Origin: Geothrix sp.
GTDB lineage: Bacteria; Acidobacteriota; Holophagae; Holophagales; Holophagaceae
NCBI GenBank assembly: GCA_030681515.1
Contig: JAUXSE010000063.1
Coordinates: 1-64,000 of the forward strand
DNA: 64,000 nucleotides
Direction: 5' to 3'
Positions 47,578 through 64,000 of this stretch are shown here, one piece after another. The notes beneath the pieces were generated by a model. It made no database searches. It was given only the letters and a program-made list of their open reading frames with translations, and was not told the origin of the DNA. Numbering within the stretch: the stretch's first letter is position 1; every line of letters starts with the position of its first letter. The translations under genes and the position numbers were made by a program.

Positions 47578-47973
47578 TCAGATCTTCAGGAGTACGGCCC
47601 GTCCGGTCTTCGCGAGGCGGGCGTCAAAGGTCAGCAGTTTGGAGCATCCCCGTCCACGGGCGGCCAGGAACACCAGGTTGTCGGCCAGCCGCACCGCCCC
47701 CGTCGAAAGGGCCAGGGCTTCCCGGGCCAGGGGACTCGCCTCCACCTCTACCCCTTCCATGTTGAGCAGGCGCCCCAGGGCGTCATGGACGCGGGCGGCA
47801 TCCCATCCCGGCGCGGCCTTCAGCACCCAGGCCAGTTCCACGAACACGAGGAGGGGGATAAAGATGCCCACACCCCCTGCGGCCTCGGTGATGGCCTTCT
47901 GGGCGGCGCGGCTCTGCCTGGGGTCATCCCCAAGAATCGCGCGGGCCCAGAGGTTGGTATCCAGGGCGATCAT
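47578..47973 (-). CDS. vapC: VapC-type PIN-domain ribonuclease toxin
   Basis: A 131-residue toxin. PIN residues are present: Asp5 (MIALDTN), Glu in LLVFVELAWVL, and the acidic pair in RLADNLVFLA and LLTFDARL. It should cleave tRNA or rRNA when free. Its start overlaps vapB in an ATGA, so synthesis follows that of the antitoxin. The pair lies beside an IS30 remnant in a gap between housekeeping genes. It is the only complete toxin-antitoxin pair in the window. Confidence 0.9.
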   Translation of the reverse strand: MIALDTNLWARAILGDDPRQSRAAQKAITEAAGGVGIFIPLLVFVELAWVLKAAPGWDAARVHDALGRLLNMEGVEVEASPLAREALALSTGAVRLADNLVFLAARGRGCSKLLTFDARLAKTGRAVLLKI

Positions 47974-48218
47974 CGATGGGCACCGGCCTGCTTGGCGGCG
48001 TCCATCTCCTCGAAGTTCATGCGGGCAGCCCCGGGAACCGCCAGGGCCCAGAGGTCTTCGGGCCGATACCGCACCGGCTCCATGGCCGCATGCCCGTGGG
48101 CGGGATCCAGCTCGAAGCGCACCTGGTCCCCCTCATGCAAGCCGAGGGCATCCCGGATGGCCTTGGGGATAGTCAACTGCCCTTTGCTGGTCAAGGTTGC
48201 GACGGCGGCGAAGGCCAT
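47970..48218 (-). CDS. vapB: VapB antitoxin (AbrB-type)
   Basis: An 82-residue antitoxin with an N-terminal AbrB/MazE-like swapped-hairpin domain (AAVATLTSKGQLTIPKAIRDALGLHEGDQVRFEL) for DNA binding, and a flexible C-terminus (NFEEMDAAKQAG) that should block VapC. GGAGAGG lies upstream of the ATG. A promoter and an inverted repeat precede it, fitting autoregulation by the VapBC complex. Confidence 0.88.
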   Translation of the reverse strand: MAFAAVATLTSKGQLTIPKAIRDALGLHEGDQVRFELDPAHGHAAMEPVRYRPEDLWALAVPGAARMNFEEMDAAKQAGAHR

Positions 48219-48861: not shown

Positions 48862-50720
48862 CACAGGTCGTCCTCCTCGTCGTCGGGCACCACTGGGGGC
48901 GTGGATGCGAAAGCAGAGGTCTCGAGCTTCGCCGCCTGTTCCTTGGCGATGCGGACGCGGAGATCCCCCAGGCGTTTTTCAAGGGCGGCCCGGTCGGGGA
49001 AGACGAAGGCCAGGGCCCGGTCCCACTGTTCGGCGGCCTCGGCCAGCTTGCCCTGTTTCACCAGGACCTCGCCCAGGTGCTTGCGGACTTCGGGACTGAA
49101 GGGGCTCAGCTCGGCGGCACGGCGCAAGGTGACCTCCGCCTCCGCGATCCGGCCCAGCTTGAACTGGGCCCAGCCCAGGCTGTCCACCACATTCCCGTTA
49201 TCCGGTGTGGCCTTGGCGCTGGCCTCGATCAGGGCAGCGGCCTCCTCGAGATCGCGGTCCTGCTCCAACAGCAGGTAGCCGAGGTTGTTCTGGACCAGGG
49301 GATTGGCGGGTTCCATGGCCTGGGCTTCGCGCAGCACCTGGAGGGCTTCCGCGTGCCGGTCGAGCTGGTCGTAGGCCTGGCTCTGAAGGATGAGCATGTC
49401 CACGCTGCGCGCAGGCGAAAGGTCCCGGGCCCGTTCCAGGGCTTCCAGACACTTGTCCCAGCGCTGGAATTCCTGCCAGAGGGCCGCCATGCCCTCCAGA
49501 TGCAGCTGCTCCAGCGCGGCCCGGGTCTCCTTCCGGGAAAAGAACCGGTACTCGAGATGCTTCGGAGGGAGCTTGCCCGCCTGCCGGAAGAAGGGGATCT
49601 TCGGGTAGCGGGCGATCCCTTCCTTGAGGGCGCCCAGGGCGCTCTTCCAGTCGTTCAGGCTGATGTGGGCCTGGGTCTTGAAGACCTGCGCTTCCCCATC
49701 GGTATGGGGGCGGGGGCGGCGGTCCTTGAGGAAAGCCAGCAGGGCCTTCCCCTTGCCCTGGAGCAGCAGGGATTCCGCATAGAGGATCTGCGCGCCATCG
49801 GCGATCCACTCGGTGTCCTCTTTTTCGGCCACAAGGATCTGGAGGCGGCGTTCAGCCTCCTCGAAGCGACCCAGGTTCATGAGGGCGCGGGCGGTGTGGA
49901 AGGTCAGGTTGGGACTCGGTTTCAGGGCCTCGGCCTTCGCCAGGGTTTCGAGGGCCTCGGCGAAGCGCGCGGTCTGCATCCGGATGAGGGACACGTTCTC
50001 CCACAATCCGGGTTCCTGGGGCAGGTGGCGCGCCAGCAGGAGGAAGCTCTCCTCGGCGTGGGCGAGATAGCCGGCCTTGATCTGCTCCCGCGCCAGCTCC
50101 TCCAGCATCCGGAGGTGCCGGTCCTCGGGATTCCGGGCGTTCAGCGCCAGCAGGGCTTCGCGTTTGCCGTCGTAGTCGTGGATGGCGCGGGCATGGATGA
50201 GGGCCCGTTCCCAGGCCGGCGCGAAACCGGGGCGCATGCGCCCCAGCCGGAGCCAGGCCCGCAGCGCGCCCTCGCTATCCTTCACCTGCTCGGACACCTC
50301 GCCGAGCCGGGCCCAGAGTTCCGGATCCTGGGGCAGCCGGAGCGTGGCCGTCCGCAGTTCCTTCGCGGCCTCCGGGGCCAGCGCGGGATCCTTCTGGGAC
50401 CGCTGGAACTGGAGCAGGGCCAGGTGGGCCTGGGCCTCGGCATTCTGCGGAGCGAGCTCCACGGCCTTCCGCGCGGGAGCCACGGCGGCATCGGCATCCT
50501 GCGCCTCCTGGAGGGCCTCGGAAAGCCGAAGGTTCGCCTCGGCGCTTCCGGGAACCCGGGCCAGCACCCGCCGGTAGATCACCGCGGCGGCCGCGGGATC
50601 GGCGCCTCCGCCCCGCAACTGAAGGGCACGGGCCTGGAGCATCAGGGCGCGGACATCCTCGGCGGAGCCCAGGGCGGCCGTCAGGAAGATCGCGAGAATC
50701 GGGCGTCGGATATTAGGCAC
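48861..50720 (-). CDS. Secreted tetratricopeptide-repeat protein
   Basis: A 619-residue protein with an N-terminal signal (PILAIFLTAALGSAE) and at least ten TPR-type helix pairs (for example AEANLRLSEALQEAQDADAAVAPARKAVELAP, LVQNNLGYLLLEQDRDLEEAAALIEASAKA, NVVDSLGWAQFKLGRIAEAEVTLRRAAELSP). The end is acidic (DDEEDDL). TPR superhelices usually scaffold protein complexes, here in the periplasm or outer membrane. The start is taken at a GTG with GGAG 7 nt upstream, overlapping aroB by 8 nt. Part of the M28-aroB-TPR-hypothetical operon. Confidence 0.87.
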   Translation of the reverse strand: MPNIRRPILAIFLTAALGSAEDVRALMLQARALQLRGGGADPAAAAVIYRRVLARVPGSAEANLRLSEALQEAQDADAAVAPARKAVELAPQNAEAQAHLALLQFQRSQKDPALAPEAAKELRTATLRLPQDPELWARLGEVSEQVKDSEGALRAWLRLGRMRPGFAPAWERALIHARAIHDYDGKREALLALNARNPEDRHLRMLEELAREQIKAGYLAHAEESFLLLARHLPQEPGLWENVSLIRMQTARFAEALETLAKAEALKPSPNLTFHTARALMNLGRFEEAERRLQILVAEKEDTEWIADGAQILYAESLLLQGKGKALLAFLKDRRPRPHTDGEAQVFKTQAHISLNDWKSALGALKEGIARYPKIPFFRQAGKLPPKHLEYRFFSRKETRAALEQLHLEGMAALWQEFQRWDKCLEALERARDLSPARSVDMLILQSQAYDQLDRHAEALQVLREAQAMEPANPLVQNNLGYLLLEQDRDLEEAAALIEASAKATPDNGNVVDSLGWAQFKLGRIAEAEVTLRRAAELSPFSPEVRKHLGEVLVKQGKLAEAAEQWDRALAFVFPDRAALEKRLGDLRVRIAKEQAAKLETSAFASTPPVVPDDEEDDL

Positions 50721-51777
50721 GGACGATCTCCGGGTGGAGCAGGGACAGAAGCCTGGCATGGGGCGTTTCCCAGGCCTGGGGGGCCAGCACCCGCTGCACG
50801 GCGGGTTCGCCGGGTCGCGGGAGAATGCAGTGGATCTCGGTGGCCGACGCCTCCCCGGTGGGTCCGGCGCCGTGCCTGGCCTTCTTGTCCCGGGCCAGCA
50901 GCGGCAGGCAGGCGGGCCAGGGGGCCACCCATGGCGCCAGGGGCGCCAGCCGCCGTACGAGCGGATCCAGGAGGCTCGCCGGGAAGGGCTTCAGCCCCTG
51001 TTCCTCGGCGAGGAGGCAGGCTCCCAGCAGGCCGAGGCCGATGGCTTCGCCGTGCAGCAGGTGATAGCCGGACGCGGCCTCCAGGGCATGGCCCAGCGTA
51101 TGGCCCAGGTTCAGCAGGCGCCGTTCTCCCGCTTCCCGCGGATCGCGATGCACCACGCCGGCCTTGAAGGCCAGGGCCCGCTCCACCCAGGGGAGCTTCA
51201 CGGGGCCGTCCTGCAGCATCTCGGCGGCCCAGTCCATCTCCCCCTGGATCAGGGCCGTCTTGATCAGTTCCCAGCGGCCATTCTCCAGGTGGCGTGGCGG
51301 CAGCCCATCGAGAAAGGAGGTGCAGGCCACGAGCCGGCGGGGCGGATGGAAGGCACCCACGAGGTTCTTGCCCGCCGCGAGATCCGCGCCGGTCTTGCCC
51401 CCCAGGGCCGCGTCGGCCATGGCCAGCAGCGTGGTGGGCCAGACCTGCCAGGCCACGCCGCGCAGGTAGAGCGAGGCCGCGAGGCCCGTCAGATCCGACA
51501 GGACGCCCCCGCCCAGGGCCACCACGGTGGCATCCCGGTGGAGCGGCACCCCCGCCCAGTGCTCCAGCCATGGGATCACCGTGCGCAGCTTCTTTTCCTC
51601 CTCCGGCACCGACACCCACAGCGCATGGCTCGGCTCGGGCATGCCGGCCCGAATCCACGCGTCGCGGAGGCGCAGATCGCCCACCAGAGTCCAGGCCCCG
51701 TCCGGAAGAAGATCGCCATCGGGGGCTTCCAGGAGGAAGACTTCCGTGGCAAATCCGGGGGGCGTGGCCAGCCTCAT
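50713..51777 (-). CDS. aroB: 3-Dehydroquinate synthase
   Basis: A 354-residue shikimate-pathway enzyme converting DAHP to 3-dehydroquinate with NAD+ and a divalent metal. NAD loop: ALGGGVLSDLTGLAASLYLRG; substrate loop: PTTLLAMADAALGGKTGADLAAGKNLVGAFHPP. Zinc ligands: the Glu of RWELIKTALIQG, the His of LNLGHTLGHALEA, and the His of HGEAIGLGLL. The ATG overlaps the M28 peptidase stop in an ATGA. A shikimate kinase domain is fused to ThiE at 57272-57742. Confidence 0.94.
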   Translation of the reverse strand: MRLATPPGFATEVFLLEAPDGDLLPDGAWTLVGDLRLRDAWIRAGMPEPSHALWVSVPEEEKKLRTVIPWLEHWAGVPLHRDATVVALGGGVLSDLTGLAASLYLRGVAWQVWPTTLLAMADAALGGKTGADLAAGKNLVGAFHPPRRLVACTSFLDGLPPRHLENGRWELIKTALIQGEMDWAAEMLQDGPVKLPWVERALAFKAGVVHRDPREAGERRLLNLGHTLGHALEAASGYHLLHGEAIGLGLLGACLLAEEQGLKPFPASLLDPLVRRLAPLAPWVAPWPACLPLLARDKKARHGAGPTGEASATEIHCILPRPGEPAVQRVLAPQAWETPHARLLSLLHPEIVRA

Positions 51778-53537
51778 GAGCGGCCCTTCAGGGTGGCCTC
51801 GGCCCGCATGACCTGGTCGCCCCGCAGCCACTGGATCACGGCCTTGTCGCCGGGCTTGTAGGCGCCCAGCGCGCCCATGAAGTCGTAGATGCTCTTCACG
51901 GGCTTGTCCCCGAACTGGATGAGGATGTCTCCGGCCTGCAGGCCGATGGTCTCGGCCGTGGAGCCCTTGGTCACGCCGTTGATGCGGAAGCCCTTGGGAT
52001 TGTCCGCGTAGTCGGGAAGGGTGCCGAAGGCGATGCGCATGGGGCCGCCATCGCCCTTCATGGGGATCTTGGCGGTTTCGGGATCGAAGGCCGGCAGCGT
52101 GTCTCCGTTGGCCAGATCCAGGGCCACGGCCTTGCCGAAGGCCGCGAGCTTCACCATCCCGGGGAAATTGATCAGGTCCGCCGTATCGGTGGGGCGGTGG
52201 TACTCGCCGTGGATCCCGGTGAAGAAGAAGAAGGTGGGGATCTTGGCCTGGGAGAAGCTCATGTGATCCGAGCCACCCACGCTGGCGCCCACGTCCACCG
52301 TCACAGTGAAGCCCTCGGGAACGAACTTCTGCGCGGCCTCCAGGGCGGATTTCGGGGCGCCCAGCCCTCCCATCATCAGCTTCGGAGCCTTGAGGTCGAG
52401 CCGGCCCACCATGTCGAAGTTGAGCATGAACTTCACGGACTCCAGCGGGTGCGTGGGGTGCTGCACCCAGTACTGGGAGCCCAGTAGGCCTTCTTCCTCA
52501 CCGGCGAAGTGCAGGAGGAGGATGGACCGCTTCGGCCGGGCCTTCATCAGCTCCCGCGCCAGCTCCACGACCATGGCGGTGCCGGAGGCGTTGTCGTCCG
52601 CGCCGGGATGCACCTGGCCCCGGGCCTCGGCGCCGCCCATGCTGTGGCGCTCGCCCATGCCCAGGTGATCCATGTGGGCGCCCAGGACGATGTATTCCTT
52701 CCGGAGCTTCGGATCGCGGCCGGGAATCTCGGCCACCACGTTGGGCACCTGCGCCTCCTCGCGCCGCAGCTTCAGATCCAGCGAGAGGGCGGTCCAGGGG
52801 GCCTGGACGAAATCCAGGCTGGCGGGCTTTCCCGTCTCCTTGATCGTCTTGAACCGGGCCGTCAGGTCCCCGCAGGCACCCGCCAGGGCCTCGGCCGTCA
52901 TGCCGACCACGGGGATGTCCATCTTCACGGGGCCCTCTTCGCGCTGGAGCGGGCGGAGTCCGCGGTCCTCCAGGACGATGACGCCGGCCACCTTGGCGGA
53001 TTCGAGCCGCTTCAGGCGGGCCAGCAGGCTCCGTTCGCCGCGGGGCAGGTGGGCGAAGGCGTCAAGATCGGGCACCGAGCGCGCGATCACCGCCACCCGG
53101 CCCTTCAGCTCCATGCCGTCCAGATCGTCGTAGCCGCCGGGGATCTGGATGCCGTACCCCAGGAAGACCAGGGCCTTGGTCCGGAAATCCGCGTCCCCGC
53201 TCAGGCCCAGGGCCTCGATATCCTTTCCCCACACCAGGGGGCGGGGGCTGTCCCCGTGGATGAGGGCCGCGTCCTGGCGTTCCCTGGCCACCTTGGCGAT
53301 GAAGGGGAACCGCTGGATCCGGGTCTTGAGCCCCAGGGCCTTCAGTTCGCCCTCGATGCGGCGGGCCGCCACATCCAGTTCGGGGTAGCCGTTGCCGCGA
53401 CCCTTCAATTCCGGGGAGGCGAGAAAGGCCACATCCCTGCGCAGCCGGGACTCCATGGCCGCATCCGCCTTCGTCGCCGGGGCCTGCGCGTGGGCCACGA
53501 GGGTGGCGGCGAAGAGGGCGTGAATCCAGGAACGCAT
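51774..53537 (-). CDS. Secreted M28 aminopeptidase with PA and PDZ domains
   Basis: A 587-residue exported metallopeptidase. Signal peptide ~1-17. The M28 core ligands are visible: LGAHMDHLG (His), PGADDNASG (bridging Asp), AGEEEGLLGS (Glu pair), FDMVGR (Asp), and IHGEYHRPTDT (His). A protease-associated (PA) domain (~100-260) is inserted before the core. The C-terminus is a PDZ domain (GSTAETIGLQAGDILIQFGDKPVKSIYDF) that may bind other proteins or C-termini. Members release N-terminal amino acids. GGAG lies 6 nt before the ATG. First gene of its operon. Confidence 0.92.
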   Translation of the reverse strand: MRSWIHALFAATLVAHAQAPATKADAAMESRLRRDVAFLASPELKGRGNGYPELDVAARRIEGELKALGLKTRIQRFPFIAKVARERQDAALIHGDSPRPLVWGKDIEALGLSGDADFRTKALVFLGYGIQIPGGYDDLDGMELKGRVAVIARSVPDLDAFAHLPRGERSLLARLKRLESAKVAGVIVLEDRGLRPLQREEGPVKMDIPVVGMTAEALAGACGDLTARFKTIKETGKPASLDFVQAPWTALSLDLKLRREEAQVPNVVAEIPGRDPKLRKEYIVLGAHMDHLGMGERHSMGGAEARGQVHPGADDNASGTAMVVELARELMKARPKRSILLLHFAGEEEGLLGSQYWVQHPTHPLESVKFMLNFDMVGRLDLKAPKLMMGGLGAPKSALEAAQKFVPEGFTVTVDVGASVGGSDHMSFSQAKIPTFFFFTGIHGEYHRPTDTADLINFPGMVKLAAFGKAVALDLANGDTLPAFDPETAKIPMKGDGGPMRIAFGTLPDYADNPKGFRINGVTKGSTAETIGLQAGDILIQFGDKPVKSIYDFMGALGAYKPGDKAVIQWLRGDQVMRAEATLKGRS

Positions 53538-56596: not shown

Positions 56597-57742
56597 ATGC
56601 TCCACCTCCCGCCTCTCTACCCCATCACCGATGCCACGCGCCCGGAGCCTCTTTCCGCGCAGGTGAAACGCTTTGGCGATGCCGGCTTTCCGCTGGTGCA
56701 GTTCCGGGGCAAGCCGCTGGATGCGAAGGCCCAGTGGACGGAACTGCGCGCGGCCCTGTCGGAGGCTGCCGCCAACGGGGGCTGGCCCATGATCTGCGTG
56801 AACGACCGGGCGGATCTGGCGCTGCTGGCCACCCGGGAGGGCCTGGCGCCCTGGGGCCTCCACCTGGGCCAGGGGGATCTGCCCGCCTCCGAGGCGAGGA
56901 AGCTGCCGGGCCTGGCAGCCCTTCACATGGGCGCCTCCACCCATGGGGCCTCCGAATGGGACACGGTGGATGCCGCCTGTGATCACGCCGGAGTGGGGCC
57001 CTTCCGCGGGACGGACACCAAAGCGGACCACGCCGCGCCCATCGGGCTGGTGGGCCTGCGGGTGGGTTGCGCGGCCCTGCGGAACCAAGGGATCGCCCCC
57101 ATCGCCATCGGCGGGTTGACGCTCGGGGATGCCGCCGATTGCTTCGCTGCTGGGGCCGAGGCCCTGGCCATGGTGGGCGAGATCCACCGGGCCGCGGATC
57201 CCGCCGCCCTGGGCTGGGAGGCCCAGCGGTTGCGGTGGCGGGTCCGACCGCCCTTCCAACGCGGCCAGGGTCTCGCGATCATCGGCGGCAGTGGCGCGGG
57301 CAAAACCACCCTGGGCCGGGAACTCGCCCAGCGCCTATCCCTGCCCTTTCATGATCTGGACGGGGCCATCGAGGCGCGCGAGGGCCGCCCGGTGGCCGCG
57401 ATCTTCGCGGAGGCAGGGGAAGGGGCCTTCCGGAATCTCGAATCGGCCCTCCTCCCGCGCCTATTGGCCGCGCCCGCGGTGGTGGCCCTGGGGGGCGGAG
57501 CCTGGGAATCCCCGGCGAACCGGAACGCCATGGCCTCCGCGGGCTTCGCGCCGCTCTGGCTCGCGGAGACGCCAGGCCGGGCCTGGGAGCGGGCTGGGCG
57601 CGATCCCAACCGTCCTTTGGCCCAGGACCAGACGACCTTCATGGCCCGCTGGGCAGCCCGCACGCCCGCCTGGTCCCGGTGGCCGATGATTCTCCCCTTC
57701 GGTCACAGTTCCCGGGAGTTGGCTTCCGCCTTGATAGACTGA
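56597..57742 (+). CDS. ThiE-like domain fused to shikimate kinase
   Basis: A 381-residue fusion. Residues ~1-205 are a thiamine-phosphate synthase (ThiE/TenI)-type TIM barrel: LYPITDA at the start, VQFRGKPL, MICVNDRADLALL, HLGQGDLPASEARKL, GPFRGTDTKADHA, and IGGLTLGDAADCFAAGAEALAMVGEI. Residues ~228-381 are a shikimate kinase: IIGGSGAGKTTLGRELAQRL (P-loop), FHDLDGAIEAREG (substrate Asp), GEGAFRNLESALL (substrate Arg), VVALGGGAWE, and DPNRPLAQ. Whether the ThiE half makes thiamine phosphate or is a TenI-like regulator is unclear. The fusion joins two unrelated pathways; I do not know a described example. Confidence 0.82.
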   Translation: MLHLPPLYPITDATRPEPLSAQVKRFGDAGFPLVQFRGKPLDAKAQWTELRAALSEAAANGGWPMICVNDRADLALLATREGLAPWGLHLGQGDLPASEARKLPGLAALHMGASTHGASEWDTVDAACDHAGVGPFRGTDTKADHAAPIGLVGLRVGCAALRNQGIAPIAIGGLTLGDAADCFAAGAEALAMVGEIHRAADPAALGWEAQRLRWRVRPPFQRGQGLAIIGGSGAGKTTLGRELAQRLSLPFHDLDGAIEAREGRPVAAIFAEAGEGAFRNLESALLPRLLAAPAVVALGGGAWESPANRNAMASAGFAPLWLAETPGRAWERAGRDPNRPLAQDQTTFMARWAARTPAWSRWPMILPFGHSSRELASALID

Positions 57743-57764: not shown

Positions 57765-58505
57765 GTGGACCTGATCCTTTCCGATCTGCATTCGAATCTG
57801 CACGCCCTCCGGGCCGTGCTGCGGTTCGCGCGGCGGCGGGCCATCCACCGCTTCGTGCTGCTGGGCGACCTGGTGGGCTACGGCGCCCATCCCAACCAGC
57901 TGCTGGACAAGGTGCGCGAGCTGCGGCCCCGCTTCATGGTGCGGGGCAACCACGACAAGGTCTGCGCGGGCCTGGAACCGGACAGCTCCTTCAGCCTCCC
58001 GGCCCGCCAAGCTGCGGACTGGACCCGGGAGCGGCTGCGCCAGGACAATTGGCGCTTCCTGGCGGACCTGCCGGTGGGGCCCCTGCGGGTGGGGGAGGAC
58101 TACCAGATCGCCCACGGCTCCCCCATGGATGAGGACGCCTACCTGCTCCACATGCGCGAAATCAGCCAGGCCTTCGATGCCTTCGAGGGCCAGCTCTGCT
58201 TTTTCGGCCACACCCATCTGCCCGGCTGCTTCGAGCTGGATGAATCCAGGGGCCAGCTGAACTGGATCTGCCTCCAGCCCGGCGAGTGGTTCCCGCTCCA
58301 CCCCCACTGCCGGTACCTGGTGAACCCGGGCTCCGTGGGCCAACCCCGGGACCGCGATCCGCGCGTCTCCTTCATGACCTACGATCCCAAGCACCGCCGC
58401 CTGAGGCTGCACCGCCTCGAGTACGATGTGAAGGGCGCAGCCAAGGCCATCCTGGCCGCGGGGCTGCACCGCAACCTGGCGGACCGGCTGAGCCAAGGCA
58501 TTTGA
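57765..58505 (+). CDS. Calcineurin-like metallophosphoesterase (YfcE/MPE type)
   Basis: A 246-residue binuclear metallophosphoesterase. All motifs are seen: ILSDLHSNLHAL (D-x-H), LLGDLVGYGAHP (GDx2G), VRGNHDKVC (GNHD), AHGSPMD, and FFGHTHLP (GHTH). A C-terminal lid (YLVNPGSVGQPRDRDPRVSF) follows. It starts at a GTG 22 nt after the thiE-aroK stop. It might hydrolyse phosphodiesters or nucleotides; the substrate cannot be told. Confidence 0.88.
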   Translation: MDLILSDLHSNLHALRAVLRFARRRAIHRFVLLGDLVGYGAHPNQLLDKVRELRPRFMVRGNHDKVCAGLEPDSSFSLPARQAADWTRERLRQDNWRFLADLPVGPLRVGEDYQIAHGSPMDEDAYLLHMREISQAFDAFEGQLCFFGHTHLPGCFELDESRGQLNWICLQPGEWFPLHPHCRYLVNPGSVGQPRDRDPRVSFMTYDPKHRRLRLHRLEYDVKGAAKAILAAGLHRNLADRLSQGI

Positions 58506-60782: not shown

Positions 60783-61037
60783 CTAGCCGCCAGCCACCGG
60801 GGGCCAGACGGCCAAGGCCTCGCCTTCGGTCAGCACCCGGGTGGCGCGCTCCGCAGGCGCCACCCAAACACCCTCCACCAGGACGATGGCGCACTGGCCC
60901 GGGGGGATGCCCTGCCCCTGGAGCACCTCCAGCACGGTGGCGCCTGGGGCCACCTCCAGCTCCTGCTGGTGGCGCGACCTCAACTCGGCGGGGAGATGAA
61001 CCGCCAGGGATGCGAACAGCTTGAGGGAAATCCTCAT
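60783..61037 (-). CDS. MoaD/ThiS-type sulfur-carrier-like protein
   Basis: An 84-residue ubiquitin-fold protein ending in the required Gly-Gly (WPPVAGG). Beta-grasp pattern: RISLKLFASLAVHLP, ATVLEVLQGQG, ERATRVLTEGEALAVWPPV. It may carry thiocarboxylate sulfur for the tungsto-pterin cofactor of the AOR enzyme. The ATG overlaps the FAD-oxidoreductase stop in an ATGA. MoaD-like genes next to AOR genes are a recurring arrangement. Confidence 0.85.
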   Translation of the reverse strand: MRISLKLFASLAVHLPAELRSRHQQELEVAPGATVLEVLQGQGIPPGQCAIVLVEGVWVAPAERATRVLTEGEALAVWPPVAGG

Positions 61038-62278
61038 GCCACTTGATGGGCGGCGGCGAGGTAGGCGTGCATGATCCGGGTGGGATCCTCCAGCAGGCGC
61101 TGCTTCCAGACGCCCAGCCGCACCCGTCCCTCGATGAGCCCCCGGAGGGCGCCGATGTGGTCGGAGAACCCCACGCTGTTCGCTCCGACCAGGCGATCGC
61201 CGTCGAACTGCAGGTTCAGGTAGCGGTAGCGGGCCTCGTCCAGCACCTCGGTGGCTTCCCCGCCCGGCACGCCCTGCCACTCCCCGAAGGAGGAGGAGAC
61301 CAGGCCGAGGGTGGTGAGCACGTTGAACACGAAGCTGCCCTTGAAGCTGGCGGGGCGGCCAGCCATGTTGAGCGCCGCGATGCGGCCCTGCTCCACCGCA
61401 TTGGGCTGGATGGCGTTGAGCTGCCGCTTGCCCGTGAGGCAGTCCGTGGCCTCGGCCACGTCCCCCGCCGCATAGATGCCGGGGAGGCTGCTCTGCATCG
61501 CTTCATCCACCCGGATGCCCTGACCCACCTCGATGCCGCTGCCCTGCAGGAAGTCGAGGTTCGGATCCACGCCCACGACGCTCAGGTAGATGTCCGCGGG
61601 GAGGATCCGCCCGTCCGCCAGGGCGACCTGGAGGACACCGCCCCGGGAGGTGATGCCCTGGGGCTGGGTGTGGGTGAGAATCTTCACGCCCTTGGCCTCG
61701 CACCAGCGGCGGAGCAGCCCGCTGGCGGTGGGATTCATCATCCGGCGCACCATGTACCCGCTGCGGACGAGGATGGTGAGGTCCACGCCCCGGGAAAGGA
61801 GCCCCTCCATGATGATGCAGCCCACGAAACCCGCCCCCATCTGGACGATGCGGGTTCCGGGGCGGGCCTTGGCCAGGATGGCCCGGGCGTCCTCGAGGGT
61901 CCAGCAGCCATGGACGCCGGGGAGGTCCATGCCCGGGATCTGCTCCAGGCTGGGCCGCGAGCCGGTGGCGATGAGCAGCCGGTCGTAGGACAGGCTGCGC
62001 CCGCCGCCCAAGTCCACGGTGCGGGCCGCCGTGTCCACGGCCCGGGCGCGGGCCTGCACCAGCTGGATGCGCAGGCGCCCGTAGTGGTCCGCGTCCTTGC
62101 GGAGGTGGGTGCCCGCCTCATTGATGTCCCCCTTCAGCAGGTAGGGGATCGCCATGCGGGAATAGGGCGGTTCCGCTTCGCCGCAGAGCAGGGTGATCTC
62201 CGCGGCGGGGTCGGCCTTCCGTAGGGTCTCCGCCGCGACCACGCCGGCGGGCCCGCTTCCGATGATCAGGTGTCGCAT
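61034..62278 (-). CDS. FAD-dependent NAD(P)H oxidoreductase of the AOR operon
   Basis: A 414-residue pyridine-nucleotide-disulphide-family enzyme: FAD loop (HLIIGSGPAGVVAAETLRKA), second dinucleotide fold (IVQMGAGFVGCIIMEGLLSRG), and the second FAD motif (LPGIYAAGDVAEA). It lacks a redox-active CxxC near the N-terminus. It is likely the NAD(P)-reducing or electron-transfer partner of the aldehyde oxidoreductase encoded just upstream, like AorC-type subunits. Starts 16 nt after the AOR stop. Confidence 0.88.
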   Translation of the reverse strand: MRHLIIGSGPAGVVAAETLRKADPAAEITLLCGEAEPPYSRMAIPYLLKGDINEAGTHLRKDADHYGRLRIQLVQARARAVDTAARTVDLGGGRSLSYDRLLIATGSRPSLEQIPGMDLPGVHGCWTLEDARAILAKARPGTRIVQMGAGFVGCIIMEGLLSRGVDLTILVRSGYMVRRMMNPTASGLLRRWCEAKGVKILTHTQPQGITSRGGVLQVALADGRILPADIYLSVVGVDPNLDFLQGSGIEVGQGIRVDEAMQSSLPGIYAAGDVAEATDCLTGKRQLNAIQPNAVEQGRIAALNMAGRPASFKGSFVFNVLTTLGLVSSSFGEWQGVPGGEATEVLDEARYRYLNLQFDGDRLVGANSVGFSDHIGALRGLIEGRVRLGVWKQRLLEDPTRIMHAYLAAAHQVA

Positions 62279-62294
62279 TGGGATCAGCGTCCGT

Positions 62295-64000
62295 TCACAC
62301 GCCGAGACGCGTTCGCGTCTCGGCGGTAGGAACGCCTTCGGCGCTCCATCCGCGGAGCTGGTAGTACTCCGGCAGCATGATGTCGAGCTTCGACACCGCG
62401 CCCTTCTGGGGGCCCGTCTTGGCGGGTTCCTTCATCAGGCGGGGCGGCAGGTTGTCGTCCTTGGCCGTGAGGCCTGCCCCGAGGTTGAATTCCCGCTCCA
62501 GGTTCCAGATGCGTTCGCCGACGAGCAGCAGGCGATCCTCGGACCAGTCGCCCTCGCAGGCGGCCTGGATCTGGGGCTGGATATCCGACAGGCCCCAGGC
62601 GAAAGTGGTGAAGAGGCAGAGGCCGCTGGAATCCACCACGGCGGTGAGATCCTGGAAGGCCTTCAGCATGGCGGGTTTCCCTTCCGTGGCCTGGGGCTCC
62701 ATCTTCACGGGGATGCCCAGCACTTCGGGCGAAACCATGTAGCCGCGGAGGTGGCAGGCGCCCCGGTTGCTGGTGGCGTAGGCCAGGCCCATGCCCTGCA
62801 GGCCGCGGCCATCGTAGGCTGGGAACTCCTGGCCCTTGACGGTCATGGAGAGATCAGGCCGGCCGTACTTGGCGCAGAGCCGCCTGGAACCCAGGCCCAT
62901 GACCTTGCCGAAGCCCTCACCCCTGGCCGTCAGCTCCGCCAGCTTGACCATGGCCTCCGTGGATCCGAAGGGCAGCTCGAAGCCGACCTCTTCCTTGGTG
63001 AGGATGCCCAGGTCGTAGAGCTCCATGGCGGCGCCCACGGTGGCGCCGAAGGAGATGGGATCGAAGCCGTCCTCGTTGCAAAGGAAGTTGGCGTACGTGA
63101 GCGCCTCCAGATCCGACACGCCGTTGGCGGCGCCCAGGGCCCAGGCGGCCTCGTACTCCACGCCGCCGGAAGCACCGTGGTACTGGGGCTTGTCCTTGAC
63201 GCTGAAGTGGCCAGGGTCCATGCGGGAGATGCGTCCGCAGGCGATGGTGCAGCCGAAGCAGGCGCCGTTGGTGACGAGATTGGCCTTGCCGTCCGTGGGC
63301 CGCTTCTCGTGCATGGCCTCGCCGCCGATGGCCATGGCCCCCTCGAACTGCACGTCGCGGTGGTTGCGGGTGGGCAGCGCCCCCAGTTCGTTGATGACGT
63401 TCATGAGCACCTGGGTGCCGTAGGTCGGGAGTCCCTGGCCCGTGACGCCGTTGGCGGCCAGCACCTTCTTTCCGGCCTCGGTGGCGGCGAAGAACGCGTC
63501 GGGATCCGCCATCTGGTACGCATCGGTCCGCGTGCCCCTTACGGCCAGGGCCTTGAGGTTCTTCGAGCCCATGACGGCCCCGACGCCAGAGCGCCCCGCG
63601 GCCCGGTGCAGATCGTTCACGATGCCCGCATAGAGCACGCGGTTCTCACCAGCTCGCCCGATGGCGGCCACCCGGATCTGGGGATCCTGATGCTGCTTCT
63701 TGATGATCTCCTCGGTTTCCCAGACGGTCCTGCCCCAGAGGTGGGAGGCGTCCACCAGTTCGGCCTTCTCATCCGTGATGAGCAGGTAGACGGGCTTCGG
63801 GGACGCACCCTCGAAGATCACCATGTCCCAGCCCGCGAACTTCAGTTCAGCGCCAAAGTAGCCGCCGGAATTGGAGCAGGCGATGGCGCCCGTGAGCGGC
63901 CCCTTGGTGACCACGGAGTAGCGCCCGCCCGTGGCCGCCATGGTTCCCGTGAGCGGCCCCGTCACGAAGATGAGCTTGTTCTTGGGGGAGAAGGGATCCA
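62295..64000 (-). CDS. Aldehyde:ferredoxin oxidoreductase, tungsten type (5' end missing)
   Basis: The 568 residues present are the bulk of an AOR-family enzyme; the reading frame remains open to the window edge (DPFSPKNKLIFVTGPLTGT continues upstream of the first GTG), so the N-terminus (~40 residues) is outside. The [4Fe-4S] ligands are seen as ACFGCTIACGR plus the distant Cys in SSGLCLFTTF. Pterin-binding features: GGYFGAELKFAGWD, AGRSGVGAVMGSKNLKALAVRG. It should oxidise aldehydes to acids, or reduce acids, with a tungsten cofactor. Followed by a flavoprotein and a MoaD-like protein. Confidence 0.92.
   Translation of the reverse strand, partial: DPFSPKNKLIFVTGPLTGTMAATGGRYSVVTKGPLTGAIACSNSGGYFGAELKFAGWDMVIFEGASPKPVYLLITDEKAELVDASHLWGRTVWETEEIIKKQHQDPQIRVAAIGRAGENRVLYAGIVNDLHRAAGRSGVGAVMGSKNLKALAVRGTRTDAYQMADPDAFFAATEAGKKVLAANGVTGQGLPTYGTQVLMNVINELGALPTRNHRDVQFEGAMAIGGEAMHEKRPTDGKANLVTNGACFGCTIACGRISRMDPGHFSVKDKPQYHGASGGVEYEAAWALGAANGVSDLEALTYANFLCNEDGFDPISFGATVGAAMELYDLGILTKEEVGFELPFGSTEAMVKLAELTARGEGFGKVMGLGSRRLCAKYGRPDLSMTVKGQEFPAYDGRGLQGMGLAYATSNRGACHLRGYMVSPEVLGIPVKMEPQATEGKPAMLKAFQDLTAVVDSSGLCLFTTFAWGLSDIQPQIQAACEGDWSEDRLLLVGERIWNLEREFNLGAGLTAKDDNLPPRLMKEPAKTGPQKGAVSKLDIMLPEYYQLRGWSAEGVPTAETRTRLGV
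62300..62325. other. 12-bp hairpin across the AOR gene end
   Basis: CGCCGAGACGCG and CGCGTCTCGGCG are perfect inverted copies around TT, lying inside the last codons of the AOR gene. In mRNA the hairpin precedes the FAD gene and may lower or stabilise expression of the distal genes. Confidence 0.6.

Follow-up and report, generated by a model that had tools for sequence, protein, structure and literature searches.

A ThiE-shikimate kinase fusion protein in Geothrix and its family, probably bifunctional and likely formed from operon neighbours more than once

In the window analysed here, a stretch of 64,000 nucleotides from Geothrix sp., one gene very probably encodes a bifunctional enzyme in which a thiamine phosphate (TMP) synthase of the ThiE type is followed by a shikimate kinase. 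The gene appears to derive from two neighbouring genes of an operon, and its two active sites most likely work independently of one another. The reading frame starts with an ATG at position 56597, ends with a stop codon whose last nucleotide is 57742, and encodes 381 amino acids with no internal stops. The features of the locus are as follows.

56597..57742, plus strand: fused thiE-aroK gene, 381 aa (single open frame, family conservation, predicted structure)
56615..57184, plus strand: ThiE (TMP synthase) barrel, residues 7-196 (Pfam TMP-TENI, PDB match, fold match to 2tps)
57185..57265, plus strand: junction, residues about 197-223, mainly one helix at 202-216 (predicted secondary structure)
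57269..57739, plus strand: shikimate kinase domain, residues 225-381 (Pfam SKI, PDB matches to E. coli AroK and M. tuberculosis shikimate kinase)
57765..58505, plus strand: calcineurin-like metallophosphoesterase with a GTG start 22 nt past the fusion stop (Pfam Metallophos_2)

The structure predicted for the fusion by AlphaFold2 with 40 fusion sequences has a mean pLDDT of 94.5 and a pTM of 0.92, and both domains are confident. A full-length, single-frame fusion is present in 67 of the 77 genomes of the Holophagaceae (family f1) at 41-82% identity, as counted by hand from the search table. The remaining Holophagaceae genomes, all draft assemblies, have fragments of the fusion (9/77) or no match (1/77, a genome that is 77% complete). 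The family consists of soil and sediment bacteria. Carriers of the fusion belong to Geothrix and ten other genera, with Geothrix fermentans and G. oryzisoli among the named ones. Two genes joined by an assembly error or frameshift would be an exceedingly improbable explanation, and it was rejected given that the same frame recurs across 67 genomes, several of which have the whole frame in one contig; nothing was found in favour of such an artefact. The one-frame fusion proposed in the initial annotation is thus borne out.

The kinase half matches the Pfam SKI profile over residues 233-347 (E 4.2e-31, 108.7 bits versus a cut-off of 22.1). Although this match ends at profile position 116 of 159, the remainder of the kinase is present: its predicted structure extends as far as residue 380, and R355, the substrate arginine near the C-terminus, shows no variation among 40 fusions. 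This agrees with the earlier description of the kinase as complete-looking. The sites inspected were the P-loop lysine, the DxD motif, Arg58, the GGG motif, Arg117 and Arg136 (M. tuberculosis numbering); all are present in the window protein (K236, D253/D255, R279, G299-301, R339 and R355) and are intact in 77 of the 77 fusions whose sequence reaches them. The best matches of this half among solved structures and folds are shikimate kinases (1l4u, 4y0a and 1kag), while the NCBIfam homoserine kinase model gives 53 bits against a cut-off of 197. The window kinase shares with AroK of E. coli (1KAG) and M. tuberculosis (1L4U) the fold, the P-loop and the shikimate-binding aspartate and arginine; it differs from them in sitting behind a ThiE barrel and in having a tryptophan in place of the tyrosine that follows R136. 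The fusion is the only match to the SKI profile in the genome, and one such match per genome is the rule in nearly all of the Holophagaceae. Shikimate is the candidate substrate, as this is the sole shikimate kinase of a genome that has aroB. The aroB gene (DHQ_synthase, 50716-51831) lies 4.8 kb from the fusion, close to the 5 kb given earlier, and is on the minus strand, so the two are not in one operon.

The N-terminal half matches Pfam TMP-TENI at residues 7-196 over the entire profile (positions 1-180 of 180; E 3.5e-27, 95 bits versus a cut-off of 27). B. subtilis thiamin phosphate synthase is its match in the PDB (E 2.6e-18) and, as 2tps, the best solved fold found with Foldseek. The active-site residues of ThiE are kept as the Arg/Lys pair (R37, K39), Asn-Asp (N69, D70), Asp (D94), Ser (S114), Lys (K142) and Gly-Gly (G172-173). 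The barrel resembles B. subtilis ThiE (2TPS/1G4T) in fold and in phosphate- and pyrimidine-binding residues, but it is fused to a kinase of another pathway and falls under the NCBIfam equivalog cut-off, with 96 bits for TIGR00693 against the required 145.1. It is therefore described here as a ThiE-type barrel that has diverged but has its site intact, and not as an NCBIfam equivalog. Two fusions from other families (L111 and L114) score above that cut-off. Of 78 distinct fusions, 68 retain every one of the eight ThiE sites checked; the other ten comprise three with Asp for one Asn, one with an aligned Arg for Lys, three that are cut or masked and three that are decayed. The catalytic residues are kept in proteins of as little as 41-42% identity encoded by genomes of 0.9-1.2 Mb, and these same genomes retain ThiC and ThiG.

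The genome of the window has two matches to TMP-TENI, the fusion and a 185-aa TenI-like protein in which the alignment shows several ThiE residues to be missing, including those at the VND and GQxD positions. Among the ThiE-type proteins of this genome, only the fusion thus has its active site intact. The check for a second thiE and a second aroK, which the initial annotation had proposed, accordingly turned up neither. As that annotation had noted, no thiamine gene is nearby; ThiC and ThiG are present on other contigs (C34 and C3 between them), and their presence indicates that a ThiE is needed. For ThiD there is a weak match only, under the curated cut-off. Taken together, the sole SKI match, the intact ThiE site and the presence of ThiC and ThiG make the fusion the best candidate for both the TMP synthase and the shikimate kinase of this bacterium. 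No Rfam match to the TPP riboswitch reached the gathering score in the window or at five further loci, among them the loci of ThiC, ThiG, the TenI-like gene and two separate ThiEs; the surroundings of thiC and thiG in the Geothrix genome (L106, L107) are among the places without one.

It had been suggested that the ThiE half may act as a TenI-like regulator or handle thiazole as an enzyme. The identity of a TenI-like barrel was rejected on the basis of the active-site residues, intact in 68 of 78 fusions, and of the separate TenI-like gene, which lacks some of the ThiE residues; the NCBIfam TenI model gives the window protein 26 bits against a cut-off of 251. A broader form of this idea, in which the barrel, TenI-like or regulatory, would control the kinase in response to a thiamine-related ligand, could draw on the score under the ThiE equivalog cut-off and on three fusions which keep the fold of the barrel without its active site, where it may serve the kinase structurally or otherwise. 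It is nonetheless very improbable, since the TMP synthase residues are intact in almost all fusions, the genome has a distinct TenI-like gene, and every loss of the ThiE site is in a genome in which either no ThiC was found or a second ThiE is present.

These three fusions with a lost ThiE active site all have intact shikimate kinase sites. In the genome of the first (L099, in G079), a draft that is 89% complete, no ThiC, ThiG or other ThiE was detected. ThiC was not found in the genome of the second (L160, in G540 of family f34), and four other tested members of f34 are without both ThiC and ThiE. The genome of the third (L062, in G058) has ThiC together with a separate ThiE of 199 bits. Compared with a congener, the ThiE half of the G058 protein is 49.5% identical and the kinase half 74.4%, so that the relaxation is concentrated in the ThiE half. 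The halves of the G079 protein are close to each other in identity (64.6% and 61.5%), as would be expected if its ThiE site was lost recently. The three cases are a small number, and two of them rest on gene absence in incomplete assemblies, but the direction of decay is what an authentic ThiE half predicts. Ten genomes of genera g3, g7 and g9 possess a second, stronger ThiE, and in these the fused barrel may be redundant. Only G058 among them has a decayed site, indicating that redundancy is not always followed by decay. The extra ThiEs of these genera (L066-L071, L078) form a clade of their own, and some lie in frames of about 500 aa.

The survey of the domain pair that had been proposed for the Acidobacteriota covered 396 genomes of the phylum, and single-frame fusions were found in the Holophagaceae and in four other families, f78, f67, f54 and f34 (G540). 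In the two other families of the window's class the shikimate kinase is separate from ThiE, as is ThiE from it where present. In other Acidobacteriota, thiE and aroK are adjacent and sometimes overlapping genes of an accB-accC-thiE-aroK-phosphoesterase operon. The common order in the class of G340 is TPR protein, roadblock-like protein, accB, accC, thiE, aroK and metallophosphoesterase, the first two being named from sequence appearance alone. At one locus (L188) the thiE stop and the aroK start overlap as ATGA. A gene of the sodium:neurotransmitter symporter family lies between thiE and aroK in L185, L186, L197 and L200 (checked with Pfam for L185). Of 95 fused loci, some of them duplicates, 83 have a phosphoesterase gene no more than 200 bp downstream, as do many unfused ones; the YfcE-like metallophosphoesterase at 57765-58505, the next gene after the fusion in the window, is of a kind that has long been kept beside aroK in many Acidobacteriota. 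The initial annotation held that relatives with separate genes would speak against the fusion. Outside the family, relatives do carry thiE and aroK separately, but the two often lie next to each other, which explains the origin of the fusion rather than refuting it.

In the shikimate kinase tree, the fusions of f67 and f78 stand beside separate kinases of f34, and the Holophagaceae fusions form their own clade. A single clade of all fusions was rejected by AU tests for both the kinase (p 0.006) and ThiE (p 0.02), while f54 with f67/f78 as one kinase clade was not rejected (p 0.135). At least two fusion events are therefore likely, with long branches and horizontal transfer as caveats to what the trees suggest. 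The best reading is recurrent, operon-derived fusion of two independently working enzymes. Such a fusion would have arisen when thiE and aroK, lying side by side in an old acidobacterial operon and probably coupled in translation, became joined in frame.

In the proposed scheme, the N-terminal barrel would join HMP-diphosphate and thiazole phosphate to give thiamine phosphate, and the C-terminal kinase would phosphorylate shikimate with ATP. The fusion would serve as the sole shikimate kinase and, in most Holophagaceae, as the sole intact ThiE. We infer that both halves are catalytically active and that their sites are most likely independent, in which case fusion would provide co-expression at a fixed ratio and perhaps stability, with no channelling of substrates. 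The simplest interpretation is a single chain carrying two enzymes that act independently.

The statement that the two pathways share no intermediates is literally fair, but it overlooks two links. Thiamine diphosphate is required by transketolase, the source of erythrose 4-phosphate for the shikimate pathway, and ThiH makes the thiazole precursor out of tyrosine; a regulatory link is thereby possible. Each activity might be modulated by the ligands of the other half, connecting thiamine diphosphate supply with aromatic synthesis through transketolase. The adjacency of thiE and aroK across many families, their repeated fusion and the confident prediction of a single body (pTM 0.92) speak for such coupling. 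It is nevertheless very unlikely, as fusions that have lost the ThiE site have an unchanged kinase site, a shikimate kinase is retained by four f34 relatives in which no ThiE was found, other members of the class have thiE and aroK far apart, and the neighbouring operon genes (accBC and the phosphoesterase) suggest co-expression only. That the kinase outlasts the ThiE site speaks in particular against a link that is obligatory. A specific version, in which the ligand state of the ThiE barrel tunes the shikimate kinase, or that of the kinase tunes the barrel, to form a checkpoint on the transketolase-dependent supply of erythrose 4-phosphate, seems quite unlikely.

Fusions of either enzyme to another are familiar. 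THI6 of Candida glabrata (3NL6) and bacterial ThiD-ThiE proteins likewise join ThiE to a second enzyme, but both their halves belong to thiamine synthesis; shikimate kinase is fused to another enzyme in AroK-AroB, AroE-AroK and AROM, where the partner belongs to the shikimate pathway. The AroE-AroK fusion is known in archaea of the Methanomicrobiales (PMC11237513). Searches of open-licence PMC text found no description of a ThiE-AroK fusion and no paper on Geothrix with shikimate kinase, and the fusion is seemingly undescribed. It most likely represents two independent enzymes paired in an ordinary way and not a new mechanism. Its interest lies in being a probable cross-pathway bifunctional protein that is conserved through a whole family and likely formed from operon neighbours more than once, and the natural losses of one site offer ready comparisons for asking what enzymes from unrelated pathways contribute to one another when fused. 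Gene-by-gene annotation pipelines may name only one half of such a protein.

Shikimate kinase has other arrangements in the same class. In family f3 (L075-L077, from G092, G086 and G084) it lies inside a frame of 429-445 aa, and the L076 frame also encodes a shikimate dehydrogenase domain, making an AroE-AroK fusion; together with ThiE-AroK in the Holophagaceae, this means that aroK has different fusion partners within one class. Elsewhere in the window, a PIN-domain protein adjoins a MazE/AbrB-type protein at 47581-48218, a probable VapBC-like toxin-antitoxin pair, and an aldehyde ferredoxin oxidoreductase adjoins a pyridine nucleotide-disulphide oxidoreductase at 61037-63998.
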